Assembly: GCA_014189895.1 (NCBI GenBank)
Contig: BJFQ01000010.1
Coordinates: forward strand, 1 to 43,041
Source: Acidobacteriota bacterium
GTDB lineage: Bacteria > Acidobacteriota > Holophagae > Holophagales > Holophagaceae
Reading direction: 5' to 3'
DNA length: 43,041 bases
A program made the position numbers and the translations under genes. Below are positions 12,071 through 25,572 of the stretch, piece after piece. Under the pieces are notes generated by a model. It saw only the letters and a program-made list of their open reading frames with translations. It ran no database searches and was not told the origin of the DNA. How positions within the stretch are numbered: position 1 is the first letter of the stretch; every line of letters begins with the position of its first letter.

Positions 12071-12622
12071 TCAGGGTTTGAGGAGCCTAAGGGTTTCTAG
12101 GACTTGTGAGTCATGGGCGGACGACTTTACATCTTTAATAATTTTTTTGATGACCCCATCTTTACCGATGATAAATGTCCACCGTTTTGCAATACCTACA
12201 AGGGGCATAGCTACGCCGTATTTGTTGATTAACTCTTTGCTTGGATCAGCTAGCAGACTAAAGGGCAATTGGTACTTCTGTGCGAACTCTTGATGCGATG
12301 CAACATCATCAGCGCTCACACCTAGAATCACTGCATCCATTGCCTTGATGGCACCAATGTTATCTCGCAGATTACAGGCTTGCGCTGTACAACCCGGAGT
12401 ATCATCTTTGGGGTAAAAATATAAAATTACGTTCGATTTATTTTTAAATTGCGACAGATTGACCATTTGGCTATTTTGGTCCAGAGCTGAAAAAAGAGGA
12501 GCTGCCTGCCCTTCTTTTGGTCCTGGAGCGTCCGGTACTGATCCACCCAAAAGACTTAATATATTCAAAGACACCACGATTACACCTTTCAGAAAGTATT
12601 TCAAATGATCCCCCAAATTCAA
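12071..12622 (-). CDS. bcp: Peroxiredoxin of the BCP/PrxQ type, probably exported or membrane-anchored
   Basis: A thiol peroxidase that reduces hydroperoxides. The active-site segment FYPKDDTPGCTAQACNLRD gives the peroxidatic Cys78 and a resolving Cys83 five residues later, the arrangement of atypical two-cysteine PrxQ enzymes. About 40 residues precede the domain, including a hydrophobic stretch at 10-27, so it is likely periplasmic or tethered to the inner membrane. Most BCP proteins are cytoplasmic. The start is a TTG at 12622 with GAGG six bases upstream. No in-frame ATG exists before the catalytic domain. Confidence 0.9.
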   Translation of the reverse strand: MNLGDHLKYFLKGVIVVSLNILSLLGGSVPDAPGPKEGQAAPLFSALDQNSQMVNLSQFKNKSNVILYFYPKDDTPGCTAQACNLRDNIGAIKAMDAVILGVSADDVASHQEFAQKYQLPFSLLADPSKELINKYGVAMPLVGIAKRWTFIIGKDGVIKKIIKDVKSSAHDSQVLETLRLLKP

Positions 12623-16363: not shown

Positions 16364-16439
16364 TGGTGGAGCTGAACGGGATCGAACCGTCGACCTCTGC
16401 ATTGCGAACGCAGCGCTCTCCCAGCTGAGCTACAGCCCC
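16364..16439 (-). tRNA. tRNA-Ala, anticodon CGC
   Basis: A complete 76-nt cloverleaf on the minus strand: acceptor GGGGCTG with CAGCTCC, D-arm GCTC/GAGC, anticodon stem CTGCG/TGCAG around loop TTCGCAA, T-arm GACGG/CCGTT with TTCGATC. The 3' CCA is encoded (16366-16364). The anticodon CGC occupies 16406-16404 and reads GCG. The gene is opposite in direction to korB and ruvA, so it has its own promoter. Confidence 0.97.
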
Positions 16440-16496: not shown

Positions 16497-17093
16497 ATGA
16501 TAGGTCTCGTCAAAGGCACGCTGTTCAAGAAACAGAGTCATCAAGCGATTATTGAATGCGCAGGGGTAGGTTATGTCTGTTCGATTTCTGTGTCCACATT
16601 CGCCCACTTACCATCAGAGGGATCCCCTGTCGTACTGTTTACCGAATTGGTCGTTAGAGAAAACGATATCAGCCTTGTTGGCTTTTATAGTTTGGAAGAA
16701 AAAGAACTGTATCTAAAACTTATCCAAGTTGACGGCATTGGTACCAAGTTGGCCTTAGATATTCTCGGGGCTCAGGGCTACAGCCTTCTCATCCAAGCCA
16801 TTCAACAAAGGAATATCGACTATCTTGTGTCCATTAAAGGGATAGGGAAGAAAACTGCTGAAAAGATCTGTTTTCAGTTAAGCGAGAAACTCGGGGGTAT
16901 AGCAGGACTTCATGGAATCGGTGAAACTGCGCCTACGAGCCCCCTAGAAGAAGATCTTAAATCCGTTCTAATCAATCTAGGCTATAAGGATGAAGCGATT
17001 CGTCAAGCTATAGGCCAAATCAGAACCCTAGATCCAATGCCCTCTTTAGAAGAGTCGATCAAGTTAGTCTTACGAAAAGAAAAGAAAAAATAG
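16497..17093 (+). CDS. ruvA: Holliday junction branch migration protein RuvA
   Basis: RuvA binds four-way junctions and loads the RuvB motor. The N-terminal OB-fold begins MIGLVKGTL. Two helix-hairpin-helix motifs follow, VDGIGTKLALDIL (about 78-90) and IKGIGKKTAEKI (about 113-124). The C-terminal RuvB-binding domain includes LINLGYKDEAIRQAI. Length 198 is normal. ruvB and ruvC are not adjacent. The gene ends 8 bp before the end of the convergent smc gene. Confidence 0.96.
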   Translation: MIGLVKGTLFKKQSHQAIIECAGVGYVCSISVSTFAHLPSEGSPVVLFTELVVRENDISLVGFYSLEEKELYLKLIQVDGIGTKLALDILGAQGYSLLIQAIQQRNIDYLVSIKGIGKKTAEKICFQLSEKLGGIAGLHGIGETAPTSPLEEDLKSVLINLGYKDEAIRQAIGQIRTLDPMPSLEESIKLVLRKEKKK

Positions 17094-17101
17094 GACTGTC
17101 C

Positions 17102-19720
17102 CTACTGGGCTTCTGCTATTTTTTTAGCCTCGGCAAACTCCACGCTAACTATTTGCGAACACCCGGGTTCAGAATGCGTAACTCCGTAGAGAGTGTCGCA
17201 TTCCACCATGGTTGATGTCTGATGCGTGATGACAATAAATTGAGTCTGCTTCGACATTTTTTTAACTAGTTCAGCAAAGCTTTTGGTCTTGACCTGGTCT
17301 AATGCTGCATCTACTTCATCTAAAATACAAAAAGGCGATGGCTTGTAGTGAAAAATAGCGAAAAGGAGAGAAATAGCCGCTAGGGCTTTTTCACCGCCCG
17401 AGAGCAGATTGATAGTTTTGGGTGTTTTTCCAGGGGGTTGCGCCATAATCTCGATCCCACAGTCAAGAATATCCTCTGTTTCATCGAGAGTTAACCTAGC
17501 CGTACCCCCTCCAAAAAGATCGACAAAGACTTCTTTAAATTTTCCATTAATGAAATCGAAAGCCTCTTTGAATCTTGCTTTCGATGTTTCATTAATCTCA
17601 TTGATTGTAAGCTCTAGATTTTTGATAGCTTCTGTCACGTCTTGTCGTTGAGTGGTCATGTCGGTCAAGCGTGACTCAGAAGTTTCTAGTTCCTCGATAG
17701 CTAACGCATTCACTGTTCCAATATCCATTCTTTTACTTTGAAGCTCGGTGATACGCGTCTGATAGAAAAGTTCTCCCTCGTCCCAAAGTTCGCGTTCTTC
17801 CTTAGTGATAGTTGCAATAAAAAGTTGTGGCTCCATTCTGAAAGCTATTTCGATTTCTTTAGAGAGAGTGTCGAGAAAGCCATTAATCTCAGTAGCTTTA
17901 ACAACAATATCGGTTCTCAGGTTTCTTGCATTATCAAGTACTTCTTGGAATTCACGGGTTCCTCTCTCGAGATCTTTGAGTTGTTCCGCTTCGGTCTCTA
18001 GGATCGGTTGATAATCCGTAAGTTCCTTTTGGAGCTCTTCTCTTTGGATTAACAATTCTTGGACTTCAAGCTCAATTTCAGAGACACGAACGACCGCTTG
18101 CTCACTTTTGACCCTGAAGTCTTCTTCATCTCGAATTAAGCGAGCGCGTTCTGCCTCTAGTTCAAATTGTGTTTTCTGAGTTGCTTTATGTTGTGTCTGG
18201 ATAGCATCTCTTTGTGCCCACGAAGCATCGCGATCTCTTGCTGTTTTAAAATTCAAACTTCTGAGTTCTTCCAAATGAGGTTGCTTAATGCTCAATTGCT
18301 TGGTTAAGTCCGCAATTTGAGAATCCTGTGCGGTATCTTGCGCAACAGCAGCACTTGCTGTTTCGCCAAGTAAGTGATTGTTGGTCTGAATTTCGCTTTG
18401 AAGAGAGCGCGAAGCACGAATGAGGAAATCCTTCGCCGAATCCATGTCGGGGGCCTCAAGTGCGCCTTGGATGTTCTGGCTAACGATTTGAAGTGACAAG
18501 TTAACTGCCCCGATGCGCTCCTGATAACGAGTCACCTTGACATTTTGAGAGTTTGTTTTCTGAGATCGGAGCTCCTCCAAATCCATTTCTAACTTTCGAG
18601 TAATACCCGTGGCAAAAGCTAGGGCTTCATCCGAGAGGCGCAGGAGGCTCTCTCTTTCTTCCAGGACCCTATTGGCCTCGAGTAGTTGGCTTTCAAGATC
18701 AGCGAACATCTTGGATTCAGATAATTGCCGAATCCCTAATTCCTCTAATCGACCGGAAAGTCTTTGGCGTTGAACTTTGGCATCTTCTTGAAATTTTATT
18801 TGAAACTTCTTTTCTTGTTCATTCAAAGAGAGCCTTTGGTCCAAGGCCATAATGCTTCTTCCGCGCTCATTTTGTGAATGCTGTTGTCGTTCAAGAGCAG
18901 TCTTAAGGCCCTCGACGGCTGAAACTTTGTCCGCCACCTGGGAGGTTAGGTCGCCCACCTGACGCTCTATTTCATCACGTTCTTTTTGAATATCCCTTCT
19001 TGCTTTTTCAATATCTTCCCAGCGTCCTGCTAAAAGGATCCGCTGAAATTTTTCAATTTCTGAATCAATGGCTACGGCTTTTTTTGCCTGAGTAGCTTGT
19101 CGTTTTAAGCTTCCCATTTGCTTGGAGAGCTCATGAATAATGTCATCGAGCCGGACAAGATTGGCTCTTGTATCATCTAGTCTTCGCTCAGCCTCAATTT
19201 TTCTAACTTTATAACGAGTAATTCCTGCAGCTTCTTCAATTAAGGATCTTCGATCTTGTGGAGTTTTATTGAGTATCAAATCAATCTGACCTTGCTGAAT
19301 ATATGAATATGCTCTGGTGCCCATGCCGGTATCCATTAACAAATTCTGGATATCTCTCAATCGGGACTCTTTGCCGTCAATTCGGTACTCACTATTTGAG
19401 TCTCGATAGAGTCGACGAGAAATGGTTGTTTCCTTCATGGTGGATGGATTACTTTGATCAGGCATCTCCATCAGAACCTTTACTTCGGCAAATCCCATTG
19501 CTTTTCGCTTCATGGTTCCCGCAAAAATAACTTCGGACATCTCGCTACTTCTGAGAACAGTGGGCCTCTGCTCTCCTAGGGCCCATGATATTCCGTCCCC
19601 TATATTCGACTTACCGCACCCATTGGGACCAACAACCCCCGTCATACCTGGTTTAAAAGATAATTTATAGGTATCCGGGAATGACTTAAACCCATGTAAT
19701 TCAAGGCTAATGAGACGCAA
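17102..19720 (-). CDS. smc: Smc-type chromosome segregation ATPase, short and apparently without a hinge domain
   Basis: An 872-residue protein with a complete SMC head. Walker A GPNGCGKSN is at 31-39, the Q-loop region IQQGQIDLIL at 141-150, the ABC signature LSGGEKAL at 773-780, Walker B FCILDEVDAALD at 797-808 and the H-loop ITHQT at 831-835. The N-terminal MRLISLELHGFKSFPD is typical of Smc. Known bacterial Smc is about 1150-1200 residues with a conserved hinge of 150 or more residues joining two arms. Here the arms are about 245 and 240 residues, and the middle (about 410-465) is short, low in complexity and shows no hinge motif and no CxxC zinc hook. The frame is unbroken. The start is a TTG with GGAG upstream. 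Confidence 0.9.
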   Translation of the reverse strand: MRLISLELHGFKSFPDTYKLSFKPGMTGVVGPNGCGKSNIGDGISWALGEQRPTVLRSSEMSEVIFAGTMKRKAMGFAEVKVLMEMPDQSNPSTMKETTISRRLYRDSNSEYRIDGKESRLRDIQNLLMDTGMGTRAYSYIQQGQIDLILNKTPQDRRSLIEEAAGITRYKVRKIEAERRLDDTRANLVRLDDIIHELSKQMGSLKRQATQAKKAVAIDSEIEKFQRILLAGRWEDIEKARRDIQKERDEIERQVGDLTSQVADKVSAVEGLKTALERQQHSQNERGRSIMALDQRLSLNEQEKKFQIKFQEDAKVQRQRLSGRLEELGIRQLSESKMFADLESQLLEANRVLEERESLLRLSDEALAFATGITRKLEMDLEELRSQKTNSQNVKVTRYQERIGAVNLSLQIVSQNIQGALEAPDMDSAKDFLIRASRSLQSEIQTNNHLLGETASAAVAQDTAQDSQIADLTKQLSIKQPHLEELRSLNFKTARDRDASWAQRDAIQTQHKATQKTQFELEAERARLIRDEEDFRVKSEQAVVRVSEIELEVQELLIQREELQKELTDYQPILETEAEQLKDLERGTREFQEVLDNARNLRTDIVVKATEINGFLDTLSKEIEIAFRMEPQLFIATITKEERELWDEGELFYQTRITELQSKRMDIGTVNALAIEELETSESRLTDMTTQRQDVTEAIKNLELTINEINETSKARFKEAFDFINGKFKEVFVDLFGGGTARLTLDETEDILDCGIEIMAQPPGKTPKTINLLSGGEKALAAISLLFAIFHYKPSPFCILDEVDAALDQVKTKSFAELVKKMSKQTQFIVITHQTSTMVECDTLYGVTHSEPGCSQIVSVEFAEAKKIAEAQ

Positions 19721-20020: not shown

Positions 20021-20761
20021 ATGAGTTCATCTTTAGATCAGACGCGATATTGGCCAATATTGATTGAGCCTTCAAGGATTCTCATTAACCAGATCGCTTA
20101 TCCTTCAAGCCTCACAGACATCGGCGAAAGTATGAAAAGAGCCTTATTAGGTATCCCGCCTTCCCCCTGTAAGGTCATTCTTGATGATTTTATAGTTCCT
20201 TCATATCTTATTGAGCCTATTGAAGATTTACCATCTGACCCAGCATCCCAATCGGCTTTTTTTCACTGGCGATACCAGCAACTATCAGGCGTAACCAGTG
20301 ACTTTAAGGTGGTGGCTTACCCTCTGGGAATAAAAGGATGGATCCTAAATGGAATATCAACGGACCTTCTAGGAAAACTCGAAGATACTCTTAGATCTCT
20401 AGATTTCCGGGTTACATCGATGGTCCCCAAATGGTCACATCTCATGAACCACTTGTTCCTCACCGGTAGAGAGGTACCCTCATGCCTTATTTGTCTTTCT
20501 CCCACTGAACAAGGTCGTTATCGGGGAACTCTGATCGCCTGGAGCGACTCTCTGAATCTATTTCGTCAATGGTCAGATGAGGCAGATCTTGACACATGGA
20601 ATCAGGATAGGATATATCCGACTCTTGCCTATTTAGAGCGAACTTGGTCTCAAAAGTCAGAATTGTACATCTATGGAACTACGACTCCCTGGCTAATCAA
20701 TGGCTATCGCCCTATTGCTGTCACAGAAGACATCTTCGTAGGTAGTAGCCATGTCTCCTAA
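20021..20761 (+). CDS. pilM: PilM-like (type IV pilus assembly) protein, degenerate
   Basis: The call rests on position: the first full gene of a pilM-N-O-P-secretin operon, overlapping pilN by 11 bp. Known PilM is an actin-like cytoplasmic ATPase of about 350 residues that binds the N-terminus of PilN. This product has 246 residues and I cannot find the usual N-terminal nucleotide-binding motif (G-[ILV]-D-x-G-S), nor a second phosphate loop. The late segment TPTLAYLERTW with LYIYGTT resembles the end of a PilM/GspL-like domain. It may keep the scaffold role without ATP binding. Confidence 0.6.
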   Translation: MSSSLDQTRYWPILIEPSRILINQIAYPSSLTDIGESMKRALLGIPPSPCKVILDDFIVPSYLIEPIEDLPSDPASQSAFFHWRYQQLSGVTSDFKVVAYPLGIKGWILNGISTDLLGKLEDTLRSLDFRVTSMVPKWSHLMNHLFLTGREVPSCLICLSPTEQGRYRGTLIAWSDSLNLFRQWSDEADLDTWNQDRIYPTLAYLERTWSQKSELYIYGTTTPWLINGYRPIAVTEDIFVGSSHVS

Positions 20762-21362
20762 GCCGATTGAAATTAATTTCATTACACCTGAAGTTTGGTG
20801 GAATCCTAAACGAAGTAAATGGGGCCGCTATATCTCGTTATCGGGGGTTTCCCTACTCACGCTAGTTGCCGTGATAATGCTTGGTATGGCTGCAAGAATT
20901 TTTTCAGTTTCCTATGCGACTTCCCAAAATACTGAACAAATACAGTTATCGCTTGATCGCATGAAAGAGATCCAAAAGCAATTATCAAGTTTTGATCTAG
21001 ATCGTGAAACGCCAAGATGGAAATTAGCTGAGAAGCTTCTGCAAGAAAAAACCATTCCATGGTCCCGATTACTATACGAAATCGAAGTCGCATTACCTGA
21101 TGGCGTAAGACTCAGGGATATACAGAAAACACGGGGAGTAGATCAACAGGTTGTCCTTAAGTTTCATGGAGAATCCACAACTGAAGAGGGAAAGGTTAAA
21201 TTTATCCAACAGCTCGGATCTAGTCCTATTTTCAAAGAACTTATCCTAGAAAGGGAAAATCAGGGGGCACAGGGGGGTTGGGAATTTGAAATGACCCTTC
21301 CTGTCAAAAATGTAATCCTTCCAGTCGCCCCGCCTAGTCCCGGTTCGAAGGATACGTTCTAA
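20751..21362 (+). CDS. pilN: PilN-like type IV pilus inner-membrane protein
   Basis: A bitopic inner-membrane protein of 203 residues. The N-terminal IEINFITPE corresponds to the short INLLP-type motif that known PilN uses to dock on PilM. A membrane segment (about 29-48) follows, then a coiled stretch and a periplasmic ferredoxin-like domain (about 100-190). The stop codon overlaps the pilO ATG by one base. With PilM and PilO it forms the alignment subcomplex linking the inner-membrane motor to the secretin. Confidence 0.82.
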   Translation: MSPKPIEINFITPEVWWNPKRSKWGRYISLSGVSLLTLVAVIMLGMAARIFSVSYATSQNTEQIQLSLDRMKEIQKQLSSFDLDRETPRWKLAEKLLQEKTIPWSRLLYEIEVALPDGVRLRDIQKTRGVDQQVVLKFHGESTTEEGKVKFIQQLGSSPIFKELILERENQGAQGGWEFEMTLPVKNVILPVAPPSPGSKDTF

Positions 21363-21937
21363 TGGACAAACTTCATCAGGCGACTAAGCATTTCATCTCG
21401 GGCTCCGTAGCCTGGATCTTGAGCCTATTATCGATTTTTATAGTAATTCCTCAGCTCCGCAATTCCATTGCAAATGAAACGAAAGCACAAAAGGATTCTG
21501 CGTTCGACTTTACCAACAAAAAGAATCAACTCGATAGTCTAATTAAATTATCAGACAAGATACGCCAAGGCCAAGATTCTCTGGTTCGAATCCAGAGCCT
21601 TTTGCCCAATATGCCTTCAAGCCAACTCCAGCTATCCTTGAGCCGAGAACTTCATAAGCTATCGAGAGTTCATAATGTCAGATTACAAAGTGTCAAGTAT
21701 GCTAGGCCTTCCAGGGAAGGGCAAAAAAATACGGAACTTGAATCTATCGAGTCTGAATTCGTCACGACGGGAATATACAGCGATCTTCGGGCATTTATGC
21801 TTTCCCTCGAAACAGCAGGACTTCCATATGCAGTCCGTGAGGCTCGTCTAGAAGAGTCCCCAGAGGGCTTGAAACTTACCGTGAATCTGCGGGCATTCAA
21901 GAAGCCTGATGTTTTGTTTCGCGAGGGTAACCAATGA
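21362..21937 (+). CDS. pilO: PilO-like type IV pilus inner-membrane protein
   Basis: A bitopic protein of 191 residues with one membrane segment at about 14-30 (SVAWILSLLSIFIVIPQ). A coiled-coil stretch rich in K, Q and D follows, then a periplasmic domain (about 85-180) with the PilO-like pattern PSSQLQLSLSRELHKLS, FVTTGIYSDLRAFMLSLE and LEESPEGLKLTVNLRAF. Known PilO pairs with PilN through these ferredoxin-like domains. The stop overlaps the next gene as ATGA. Confidence 0.82.
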   Translation: MDKLHQATKHFISGSVAWILSLLSIFIVIPQLRNSIANETKAQKDSAFDFTNKKNQLDSLIKLSDKIRQGQDSLVRIQSLLPNMPSSQLQLSLSRELHKLSRVHNVRLQSVKYARPSREGQKNTELESIESEFVTTGIYSDLRAFMLSLETAGLPYAVREARLEESPEGLKLTVNLRAFKKPDVLFREGNQ

Positions 21938-22560
21938 ATCCCTTGAGGATTTTGTTAGAAAGAATAAACCTATCTATTTCGCTTGCAGGCATGAAGCAAG
22001 AAATTCTTACCAATCGAAGAACCCAAGTGGGTATTGTCATACTTTCGGGGCTACTTGCCATACTCCTGTGGCCCAACTCCAGCCAACCCCAAAGAACCCT
22101 TGTCGGCACAGACTCCGTTTCTATGGCGGCTTTGCGATCTCTTCCTGATCTCTCCGCTCTAGATCAATCATCTGAGATACCTCCCTTGCCCAAACTTCTC
22201 AGAGATCCTTTTTTGTTCGAAGGTCCCAAGCCGCCTGAAATTATAAAAAAAGCCAAGCCAATGCCGCCCCCTCCCGAGCCTACTGCCGAAGAGATTGCCC
22301 AAAAAGAATTAGAACAGGATCGACAACTAGAAATGGCTACGGCCCCGAATGAATACAGATTCATTGGGTTTCTCAGAACCAGCAAAGCTGGCGTAACTGG
22401 GGCATTTATGAACGGCGAAGAACCTACCAATTTAAAAATAGGGTCGATTATTCGAGGTCGATGGAAATTAATCGAGATAAAGGAAGACAATGCACGGTTT
22501 CAGAACCTTAAATACCCTGATTTATTCTTTGCAGCATCTGCTAGCAGTATTGAAAACTAG
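21934..22560 (+). CDS. pilP: PilP/GspC-like periplasmic linker protein
   Basis: The 208-residue product has one membrane segment at about 33-46 (VGIVILSGLLAILL), a long proline-rich linker (KPMPPPPEPTAEE, about 102-114) and a small C-terminal beta domain (YRFIGFL ... VTGAFMNGE ... LKIGSIIRGRWKLIEI). This beta domain resembles the homology region by which PilP or GspC binds the secretin N-domains. Known PilP is usually a lipoprotein. This one is a membrane-anchored form closer to GspC in layout. Confidence 0.72.
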   Translation: MNPLRILLERINLSISLAGMKQEILTNRRTQVGIVILSGLLAILLWPNSSQPQRTLVGTDSVSMAALRSLPDLSALDQSSEIPPLPKLLRDPFLFEGPKPPEIIKKAKPMPPPPEPTAEEIAQKELEQDRQLEMATAPNEYRFIGFLRTSKAGVTGAFMNGEEPTNLKIGSIIRGRWKLIEIKEDNARFQNLKYPDLFFAASASSIEN

Positions 22561-22608
22561 CCAGATTCATTGAAATGCCCTTTTTTTGAGGGATACTAGA
22601 AAGTGACC

Positions 22609-24927
22609 ATGAGAACCCCAAAGCAAATAAAGTCCCTACTTGTCCTCGTTATTTTAACCCTAGGTTCATTCGGCTGTGCCCTTCAGAAGGCCAATCAAGC
22701 TTTTGAAGAGGGCCGATATGAGGATTCCCTCCAGGGCTATCGTGCCATCGTACAAAACGACCCTTCAAATGTGAAAGCTCGAATAGGCCTTCAGCGTTCT
22801 GCTCAGCAAGCCGCTGAACAAGTATTGAGGGAAGCTCAGGAACTTGAGCGAAGAGGGGGCAGCGATGTAGCCATTCAGAATTTAGTTGCCAAAGCGCTCA
22901 CCTTTAATTTTGATAATCAAATTGCACAAGATTGGCTTCTGCGTCTTCAACAAAAAATCGAGAAAGCCAAAACCCAATCTGCTCCCGAAGATATGGACGA
23001 TATTAAAGCGCGAGTTGAACAAGAAAATACCCTTCTTCTCAATCCTAATTCACTAGATGGTATTGATATTTCCTTCACCCGTCGAACTTCTCTTAAAGAA
23101 ATTCTGGGGACACTGGGTAAGGCAGCAGGGATTAACGTCATTCTTCATACAAGTTTTCAAGATAATTCCATCTCTATTGACTTGAAAGGCCTTTCTTTTT
23201 ATAAGGCCTTAGATACCCTGATGCTTCAAAATGAAATGTTTTACAAAGTGGTGGACAAGAACACCATTATGGTTTTTAAAGCTACTCCGCAAAATCGAGA
23301 GCAATTCGAAAATCAGATCATCAAAACCTACTTTTTATCTAATGCAGACCCCAATGAGGTCCGCGCAACTTTAGTTACGCTCATTCCCCAACTCAGGGTG
23401 TTCACCGACAAGCGGATGAATGCAATTATTGTCAAAGCGAAGCCCCTAGAGTTAGGAATAACTGACCGCGTTATCGGCCAACTCGACAAAGCCCTGCCCG
23501 AGGTAATGGTTTATCTAGAACTTATGGAAGTCACCGAAAGCAGTTTGCAGAAAGTCGGACTCCTTCCCGTTCTGGGCGCTGGCGATGATTCAGGAACCTT
23601 TCGAATTGGAGCAACCACAGTAAATCAAAGCAGTGGCCTCAATTCAGCCACAAATACCCTTTCTATTTCTTCAGCAAATATCCGGACTCTATTCCCTAAC
23701 TTGGCCCTTGATTTTTTGAAAAGCAATGGAGATGCAAGATTAGTCGCCAGTCCTAACGTCAGAACTGTCAGCGGAGGCAAAGGCGAAGTCAATATCGGAG
23801 ATAAGATTAGTACCACTCAGTCAGCGCTCACGAGCGGACTCCTCGGAGCCAATCAATCAGGGGCCCAAAGTTCTTCCAATACCACTGGCCTCGGGGGGTT
23901 AGGGCAAGTATCGTTCAGTTACGAGGATGTGGGAGTTAAGATATCTGTAGAACCTAGGGTTCATTACAATGGCGAGATTACTCTCAAAATCGAAGCCTCT
24001 GTGACAACCCTCAAGGCTGGCTCGGCCCCCGGACGGCCCGATCTAGGCCGAAGAGAAATTAAAACTACAGCGCGGTTGAAAGACGGAGAAACAGCCATCT
24101 TTGGTGGGCTTCTAAAGGACGAAGAGCAAAAACAATTTCAGGGTATCTGGGGTGTTTCGGAAATGCCCCTTATTGGAAGATTGATCGGCAACACCCGTAA
24201 TCAGAAGGCAAAGACAGACGTGATTCTGACCATCCGAGCTGTTCAAGTAAGGAAACCTGTTCTCACAGAAAGTGATTTTAAGGGCTTCAATCCCGAAGAT
24301 ATGGGAGAAGGCTCTAAATCCACGATGCCCAAAGAGGCTAAAAATAATCCTACGGAAACCCCTACCAACATCGATTCCTCTGCTTCCGTCGCTATAGAGA
24401 AAAAGCCGATTTCTCAGGAAATGCTTATTTCGATTCCACCTGAGTCCATCAAGGAGACTTTAAGTGTGGCTCCTCGCGCAGATCTGGCAACTGGGAAAGT
24501 GCTAACTGTACCTGTAAAAACAAAACCTGCGGACTCTGATTTGATTATTTTCATGTCTCCTCCTGTATCGCAAGCAATGAAAGGAGATAGCCTCACCATC
24601 GACTTAAATATTAGTGGTGGAGTTGGTATTACCTCGGGTCAACTAGATCTCTTAATTCCGCCGGGATTAAAAGTTATAAGCGTAAAACAGGGGGACTTTC
24701 TATTAAATGATTCCGGGGCTTTGGATTACACCGAAGATGGTGCGGGCATCTGTCGGATTAGTTTTAAGCGGAATGGACAGGGTGAGGATAGCGGCAATTT
24801 ACTCTCCCTTAGCCTAACCGCCGTTCAATCAGGCAATGCACCCGTAATTATTCAAAAGGCCGCTATTTTTATCGGGCCCAACCCTATTTCGGCACGCTGG
24901 GTGAATTCGCTCTTTAACATTCAGTAA
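22609..24927 (+). CDS. Secretin (PilQ/GspD family) with N-terminal TPR-like and C-terminal cohesin-like regions
   Basis: Outer-membrane channel of the pilus/secretion system, 772 residues from the ATG at 22609 (a GTG two codons earlier is possible). A lipoprotein-like signal ends at Cys23 (LGSFGC; the lipobox is imperfect). TPR-like helices follow at about 27-115, then an STN/secretin N-domain (about 153-225), a further N-domain (about 235-305) and the secretin core with ARLVASPNVRT, VGVKISVEPRV and MPLIGRLIGNT. A linker rich in P, T, K and S leads to a C-terminal beta domain of about 130 residues (starting DLIIFMSPPVSQAMKGDSL) that looks like a cohesin fold. Confidence 0.9.
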   Translation: MRTPKQIKSLLVLVILTLGSFGCALQKANQAFEEGRYEDSLQGYRAIVQNDPSNVKARIGLQRSAQQAAEQVLREAQELERRGGSDVAIQNLVAKALTFNFDNQIAQDWLLRLQQKIEKAKTQSAPEDMDDIKARVEQENTLLLNPNSLDGIDISFTRRTSLKEILGTLGKAAGINVILHTSFQDNSISIDLKGLSFYKALDTLMLQNEMFYKVVDKNTIMVFKATPQNREQFENQIIKTYFLSNADPNEVRATLVTLIPQLRVFTDKRMNAIIVKAKPLELGITDRVIGQLDKALPEVMVYLELMEVTESSLQKVGLLPVLGAGDDSGTFRIGATTVNQSSGLNSATNTLSISSANIRTLFPNLALDFLKSNGDARLVASPNVRTVSGGKGEVNIGDKISTTQSALTSGLLGANQSGAQSSSNTTGLGGLGQVSFSYEDVGVKISVEPRVHYNGEITLKIEASVTTLKAGSAPGRPDLGRREIKTTARLKDGETAIFGGLLKDEEQKQFQGIWGVSEMPLIGRLIGNTRNQKAKTDVILTIRAVQVRKPVLTESDFKGFNPEDMGEGSKSTMPKEAKNNPTETPTNIDSSASVAIEKKPISQEMLISIPPESIKETLSVAPRADLATGKVLTVPVKTKPADSDLIIFMSPPVSQAMKGDSLTIDLNISGGVGITSGQLDLLIPPGLKVISVKQGDFLLNDSGALDYTEDGAGICRISFKRNGQGEDSGNLLSLSLTAVQSGNAPVIIQKAAIFIGPNPISARWVNSLFNIQ

Positions 24928-24929
24928 TC

Positions 24930-25394
24930 ATGAATATTACAAACGCCAAGGGTTTCACCCTTCTCGAATTGGTTATCACGGCGACCGTTCTGCTTATTCT
25001 AGCCTCGGCATCGGTTCCTCTAGTTAAGAATGGTATTCGCCGAGACAAGGAACTTGAACTCTCAAGAAACCTCAGGGAAATAAGACTTGCGATAGATGAA
25101 TACAGAAAAGCTGCAGAATTTCAAAAAATAAAAACTCCTGCTACAGAAAATAATTTGTGTCCCTCAACTCTGGAAGAACTCGTGGAAGGCGTAGCTGCGA
25201 CTGGAAGTGCATCAAAGAAAATTAAATTCTTGAGGCGTATCCCCGTGGACCCCTTCACGGGCAAGGCAGAATGGGGGTTGAGAAGTACTTCAGATGACCC
25301 CAAATCTCGAAGCTGGGGAGGTGGTCATATCTACGACGTTTATTCACTAGCGCCGGGTACTGGGCTGAATGGAATTCCCTATACTGATTGGTAG
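24930..25394 (+). CDS. gspG: Type II secretion-type major pseudopilin (GspG-like)
   Basis: A prepilin-like protein of 154 residues. The class III leader is MNITNAKG, with cleavage after Gly8 giving an N-terminal Phe and the conserved Glu at mature position +5 (FTLLELVI). A hydrophobic helix and a globular part follow. IPVDPFTGKAEWGLRS and IYDVYS match the calcium-site region of GspG-type pseudopilins more than a long pilin. It starts two bases after the secretin stop and closes the operon. The assembly ATPase, platform protein and prepilin peptidase are not in the window. Confidence 0.85.
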   Translation: MNITNAKGFTLLELVITATVLLILASASVPLVKNGIRRDKELELSRNLREIRLAIDEYRKAAEFQKIKTPATENNLCPSTLEELVEGVAATGSASKKIKFLRRIPVDPFTGKAEWGLRSTSDDPKSRSWGGGHIYDVYSLAPGTGLNGIPYTDW

Positions 25395-25485: not shown

Positions 25486-25572
25486 GCGGATATGGCGGAA
25501 TTGGTAGACGCGCTAGATTCAGGTTCTAGTGCTCGCAAGGGCATGGGGGTTCGAGTCCCTCTATCCGCACCA
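25486..25572 (+). tRNA. tRNA-Leu, anticodon CAG
   Basis: An 87-nt class II tRNA with encoded CCA. Acceptor GCGGATA pairs with TATCCGC. The anticodon stem is CTAGA/TCTAG around TTCAGGT, with anticodon CAG at 25520-25522 (reads CUG). The long variable arm is TGCTC-GCAA-GGGCA, and the T-loop is TTCGAGT. The D-arm has the GG needed for T-loop contact. It lies between the pseudopilin gene and rpsO. Confidence 0.98.

Follow-up and report, generated by a model that had tools for sequence, protein, structure and literature searches.

A sole, hinge-less Smc in a streamlined genus of Holophagaceae

The only Smc found in the genome of a streamlined member of the Holophagaceae has almost certainly lost its hinge domain, together with the distal ~70-80 residues of both coiled-coil arms. 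The gene is located in the window (the whole stretch of DNA analyzed here, 43,041 nucleotides; GC content, 44.6%) of genome G000, which measures 1.17 Mb, is 97% complete, and belongs to a genus grouping with three species. We infer that the grouping most likely corresponds to Acidiparvus (UBA12189), a planktonic genus of the Holophagaceae. Genomes of this streamlined freshwater genus are 1.12-1.37 Mb in size with 44.3-48.7% GC (PMC11561045).

The smc reading frame was intact and encoded 872 amino acids (Table 1), as described in the first-pass annotation. The protein scored 721.6 bits against the NCBIfam model TIGR02168 (SMC_prok_B; cut-off, 567). Both of its ends aligned to the heads of Bacillus subtilis Smc, and the ABC-type head motifs (Walker A, signature, and Walker B) were all intact, confirming the full Smc head that had been recognized at the two ends. 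Only five cysteines are present (residues 35, 754, 798, 841, and 854), all of them in the head; as annotated earlier, the protein contains no CxxC zinc hook, and no other metal-hook motif was found in it. In addition to this gene, a search of the genome for Smc returned ABC-type ATPases and a frame of RecN size, but no second Smc. The 872-aa protein is the chromosomal housekeeping Smc and the sole Smc found in the genome.

Table 1. Coordinates of smc, its parts, and associated genes (window positions unless a genome and contig are given)
Feature	Position	Strand	Basis or remark
Hinge-less Smc, 872 aa, TTG start	17102..19720	-	SMC_prok_B score; equal length and 88% identity in sister species
N-terminal half of ATPase head, residues 1-165; Walker A GPNGCGKS 31-38	19226..19720	-	dN/dS 0.02
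N-terminal coiled-coil arm, residues 166-422, one predicted helix	18455..19225	-	AlphaFold2 model
Tip turn, residues 423-425; relatives have distal arms and hinge here (~300 aa)	18446..18454	-	Comparison, AlphaFold2
C-terminal coiled-coil arm, residues 426-711; joint-like region ~627-672, GTVN 668-671	17588..18445	-	AlphaFold2, sequence
C-terminal half of ATPase head, residues 712-872; signature LSGGEK 773-778, Walker B FCILDEVD 797-804	17105..17587	-	dN/dS 0.016
ruvA, conserved neighbor	16497..17093	+	TIGR00084, 4e-49; near smc in G005 and G002 as well
Pilus/secretin cluster, conserved neighbor upstream of smc	20021..25394	+	NCBIfam; gene order alike in G003, G005, and G002
Secretin	22603-24927	+	NCBIfam
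Pilin-like gene	24930-25394	+	NCBIfam
scpB 3' end, G000 (L109)	G000:C9:50051-50158		Cut by contig end
scpB 3' end, G001 (L110)	G001:C13:6977-7051		Cut by contig end

The surroundings of the gene are those of the family. The pilus cluster, smc, and ruvA adjoin in G002 and G005, and the pilus cluster adjoins smc in G003; the four genes of the cluster upstream of the secretin had no NCBIfam match. In a tree built from the heads only, the short Smc and its counterpart in G002 grouped with Holophagaceae on a long branch (0.9), their exact place within the family being unsettled. Judged by sequence and gene order, the hinge-less gene is the syntenic orthologue of the Holophagaceae Smc, and the alternative named in the first-pass annotation, a paralogue accompanying a canonical Smc, was not borne out. 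Nearby, the window also carries a tRNA-Ala (CGC) at 16364-16439, between oxidoreductase genes and ruvA, and a tRNA-Leu (CAG) at 25486-25572, downstream of the pilus cluster. A 183-aa frame at 12071-12622 matched a stretch of G002 over just 42 aa (50% identity), where that stretch may be cut off.

The overall outline of the protein, a head plus a coiled-coil hairpin with no SMC hinge, is like that of Rad50/SbcC, with which hinge-less SMCs have previously been compared (PMC12153180). It is thus conceivable, if improbable, that the protein is no longer a condensin and acts as a head-kleisin DNA clamp or a repair-type ATPase. However, its best family is SMC_prok_B, whereas the Rad50 model PRK02224 gave 51.3 bits, far under its cut-off of 1087; in addition, the zinc hook is missing, the kleisin ScpA is retained in the genome, and the RecN-sized gene exists separately. 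No MukB/MksB-type family was present among the best 25 of 31 NCBIfam matches, and the predicted structure described below contained no mini-hinge.

We then compared the protein with its relatives. The Pfam hinge model PF06470 had no match in the genome of the window and none in any of the 34 genomes searched from other genera of the family, and it reached an E value of only 0.0036 with the isolated hinge regions of relatives. A missing PF06470 match was rejected as a test of hinge loss; on its own it carries little weight because the model also fails on family genera that bear a hinge. The loss was instead assessed by direct alignment, with a family hinge profile, and from structure. The Smc proteins of 27 family relatives (1167-1182 aa) aligned end to end with the 872-aa form, and their ~300 additional residues were located between residues ~425 and ~470 of the short protein. 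When this extra region was modeled with AlphaFold from 23 relatives (pLDDT, 88.6), the best PDB matches in Foldseek were the SMC hinges of human, Pyrococcus, Geobacillus, and Thermotoga, with E values down to 1e-8 and a probability of 1.00. When the family hinge profile was searched against PDB sequences, no hinge came up; hinges were recognized by the fold comparison alone. The modeled fold indicates that the ~300 residues of the relatives are a divergent but true SMC hinge plus the distal arms. Searched against the genus's three genomes, the family hinge profile matched nothing at E ≤ 10, compared with E values of 1e-87 to 1e-112 in four family controls. Since the hinge of the relatives is real and its profile is absent from these genomes, the genus has, with near certainty, lost the hinge along with the distal arms. 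The absence of a hinge noted in the first-pass annotation is therefore upheld by direct comparison, with none present at residues 380-500, and not by the PF06470 result. The hinge of Holophagaceae Smc (e.g., L061:1668-2468) is too divergent for PF06470, although its predicted fold is that of a normal SMC hinge; Pfam-based surveys would miscall the Smc of this family as hinge-less.

An 872-aa hinge-less Smc was also encoded by a second species of the genus (G002, a Holophagaceae MAG; L089 on JALRCU010000009.1), with 88% identity and no gaps; all 27 relatives aligned above bear the hinge. A survey of 77 family genomes returned an Smc match for all 48 that were near-complete; of the matches listed, those in the two genomes of the genus were the sole ones to span the whole 872-aa query without a break. 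The third genome of the genus (G001, 84% complete) is without the whole 11-kb region, so that only two species are known to carry the short form. The smc frames of the two species were 81% identical in DNA, and their overall dN/dS was 0.049. The ratio was ~0.02 for the heads, 0.05 for the arms, and 0.15 for the tip (residues 401-480); dS exceeded 1 and is therefore imprecise. The tip evolved fastest, with 59% identity. These ratios point to strong purifying selection on the hinge-less Smc. Because the sister species carries a gapless 872-aa protein and dN/dS is 0.049, the short Smc is, on this comparison, neither a frameshift nor an assembly error, the two faults that had been named as possible refutations. 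The sequence does come from a MAG, but a MAG of another species, deposited separately, contains the short form as well, and this and the conserved flanking genes make an assembly or binning artefact extremely improbable. Hardly more probable is a gene decaying in a shrinking genome and heading for loss. The streamlined genome of 1.17 Mb and the long branch in the head tree might suggest such decay, but it is largely refuted by the selection on an open frame that has equal length in the two species and intact head motifs.

AlphaFold2 modeling of the 872-aa Smc (pLDDT, 81.7; pTM, 0.48) predicted two long antiparallel coiled-coil arms, and a Foldseek search with the model matched Smc heads, as expected. 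In the numbering of the model, which is that of the protein minus one, the chain runs from the head through a helix at 166-421, a three-residue turn, a helix at 425-626, and a joint-like break extending to 672, from which a helix leads back to the head. The single-chain model contained no tip domain, the arms being joined by the three-residue turn. A low-complexity linker of ~50 residues (410-465), as proposed in the first-pass annotation, does not agree with this predicted helical hairpin, in which two continuous helices meet at ~423-425. The arm lengths given there (~245 and ~240 residues) also need revision to ~257 and ~286 aa, with head borders uncertain by ~10 residues. By equally rough borders, the arms of the relative L061 are ~337 and ~358 aa long. 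Among natural prokaryotic Smc proteins, arm lengths fall into groups around 238, 341, and 515 aa; B. subtilis Smc remains functional when its arms are shortened to 253-267 aa (PMC5344682). The arms of the relatives are thus near the 341-aa class, and those of the short form are only near the lower class, with borders too uncertain to test the fit.

Next, the partners of Smc were searched for in the three genomes of the genus. ScpA was full length and conserved in all three, and ParB was also present in all three. A sensitive search detected the 3' end of scpB, including the stop codon, at contig ends in G000 and G001. ScpB was not found in G002, and a whole ScpB was recovered in none of the three genomes. 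The search for scpA and scpB suggested in the first-pass annotation thus succeeded for the former and yielded only tails of the latter. Several further MAGs of Holophagaceae (e.g., G019, G009, and G012) likewise have scpB at or close to the end of a contig, and the scpB locus seems hard to assemble or bin. ScpB is probably there in the genus and unassembled, and we do not claim its loss. The idea that hinge loss goes with ScpB loss was rejected when the ScpB tail surfaced at the contig ends of G000 and G001. In G002, two parS-like sites (L125; G002:C4:880-895 and 1245-1260) lie 365 bp apart, each with one mismatch. The best site in G000 was a single one with two mismatches and is not convincing, and no parS was found within the window or beside parB.

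The first-pass annotation offered two readings, a different mode of dimerization or a protein that may not act as a classical condensin. The presence of ScpA and ParB in the genome, together with the strong purifying selection, favors a working Smc-ScpA(B) machine. The whole is best explained, in our somewhat confident view, by a housekeeping Smc of a streamlined genus that has lost its hinge and works through Smc-ScpA(B). The protein, left as an ATPase head with a closed coiled-coil hairpin, would continue to function in a Smc-ScpA(B) complex that is loaded by ParB. In this complex, ATP-dependent engagement of the heads would keep two Smc molecules paired, ScpA would connect one head at its neck with the other at its cap, and the parallel arms would zip together and add to the hold on the dimer. 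At the far end there would be a rod tip, open or weakly closed, in place of a hinge-closed ring. Dimerization through engaged heads, ScpA, and arm-arm zipping is the likeliest mechanism, although we give it about equal chances of being right or wrong. Such pairing is plausible because B. subtilis grows normally when an unrelated zinc hook takes the place of its Smc hinge, so that the hinge fold is not critical (PMC5344682), and because arm-arm contacts probably contribute to dimerization of hinge-less B. subtilis Smc, according to a passage of PMC5526789 citing Minnen 2016. The swap in B. subtilis keeps a dimerizer, however, and therefore sets no precedent there for full function without one at the tip.

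It is also possible, though unlikely, that the shortened tip is itself a new dimerization device, with two hairpins joining at their ends to form a small four-helix bundle and the ring staying closed. Stretches of the tip are conserved in both species (ASxSLQSEIxTNNxLLGE), the whole protein is under strong selection, and B. subtilis accepts an unrelated dimerizer (PMC5344682). But the tip is the least conserved part of the protein and has no cysteine or other metal-hook motif. Furthermore, the tip hydrophobic residues that the two species have in common are confined to a single face of each helix. This pattern resembles a simple two-helix coil, fits a plain hairpin, and argues weakly against a tip-tip bundle. 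That a separate protein holds the tips together, or that a partner such as ParB clusters Smc monomers, appears improbable. ParB is present and the function of the hinge must go somewhere, but a profile search detected no free-standing hinge homologue in the genomes of the genus, and no candidate adjoins smc, the neighbors being the ordinary ones of the family.

The hinge-less Smc can be set beside known systems. In its head, arms, joint-like region, score above the curated cut-off, Holophagaceae orthology, and accompanying ScpA, the 872-aa protein is like the Smc of Smc-ScpAB of the B. subtilis type; it differs in having no hinge and in arms that are each ~70-80 aa shorter than in relatives. 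Smc(Zh), the B. subtilis Smc bearing a Rad50 zinc hook, likewise dispenses with the hinge fold but is engineered and still has a dimerizer at the tip (PMC5344682). Hinge-less SMCs have already been reported as an oceanic clade near actinobacterial Smc, with the host unnamed (PMC12153180), and this earlier publication lowers the novelty of our finding. That clade shares with the present protein the SMC head, the antiparallel arm, and the absence of both hinge and CxxC. It branches by actinobacterial Smc, whereas the 872-aa Smc groups and is syntenic with Holophagaceae; our tree was built without actinobacterial Smc, and the two are set apart by description. Unlike the clade, the 872-aa Smc has a known genome, a kleisin, and a sister species, and the ancestral hinge is visible in sister genera. 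Compared by description in this way, the Holophagaceae case is likely a second, independent, and genome-anchored loss of the hinge. More tentatively, and with rather less than even confidence, we suggest that independent losses of the hinge have taken place among streamlined plankton from two or more phyla, in each of which a sole Smc with ScpA(B) still organizes the chromosome without a tip dimerizer.

The hinge is regarded as one of the core elements of Smc rings, and it is debated whether its opening or closing plays a role in loading and loop extrusion. Hinge loss may accompany genome streamlining, which, with two cases at most, is a lead and not a rule. With the Holophagaceae protein, the puzzling hinge-less SMCs of the ocean gain a counterpart that is anchored in a genome; being natural, sole, and strongly selected, this protein is a ready test object. 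If the reading of independent losses in two phyla is true, a natural Smc motor would be an open clamp or rod and not a hinge-closed ring. If the hinge-less Smc-ScpA(B) compacts or extrudes DNA, the motor would need no hinge-closed ring.
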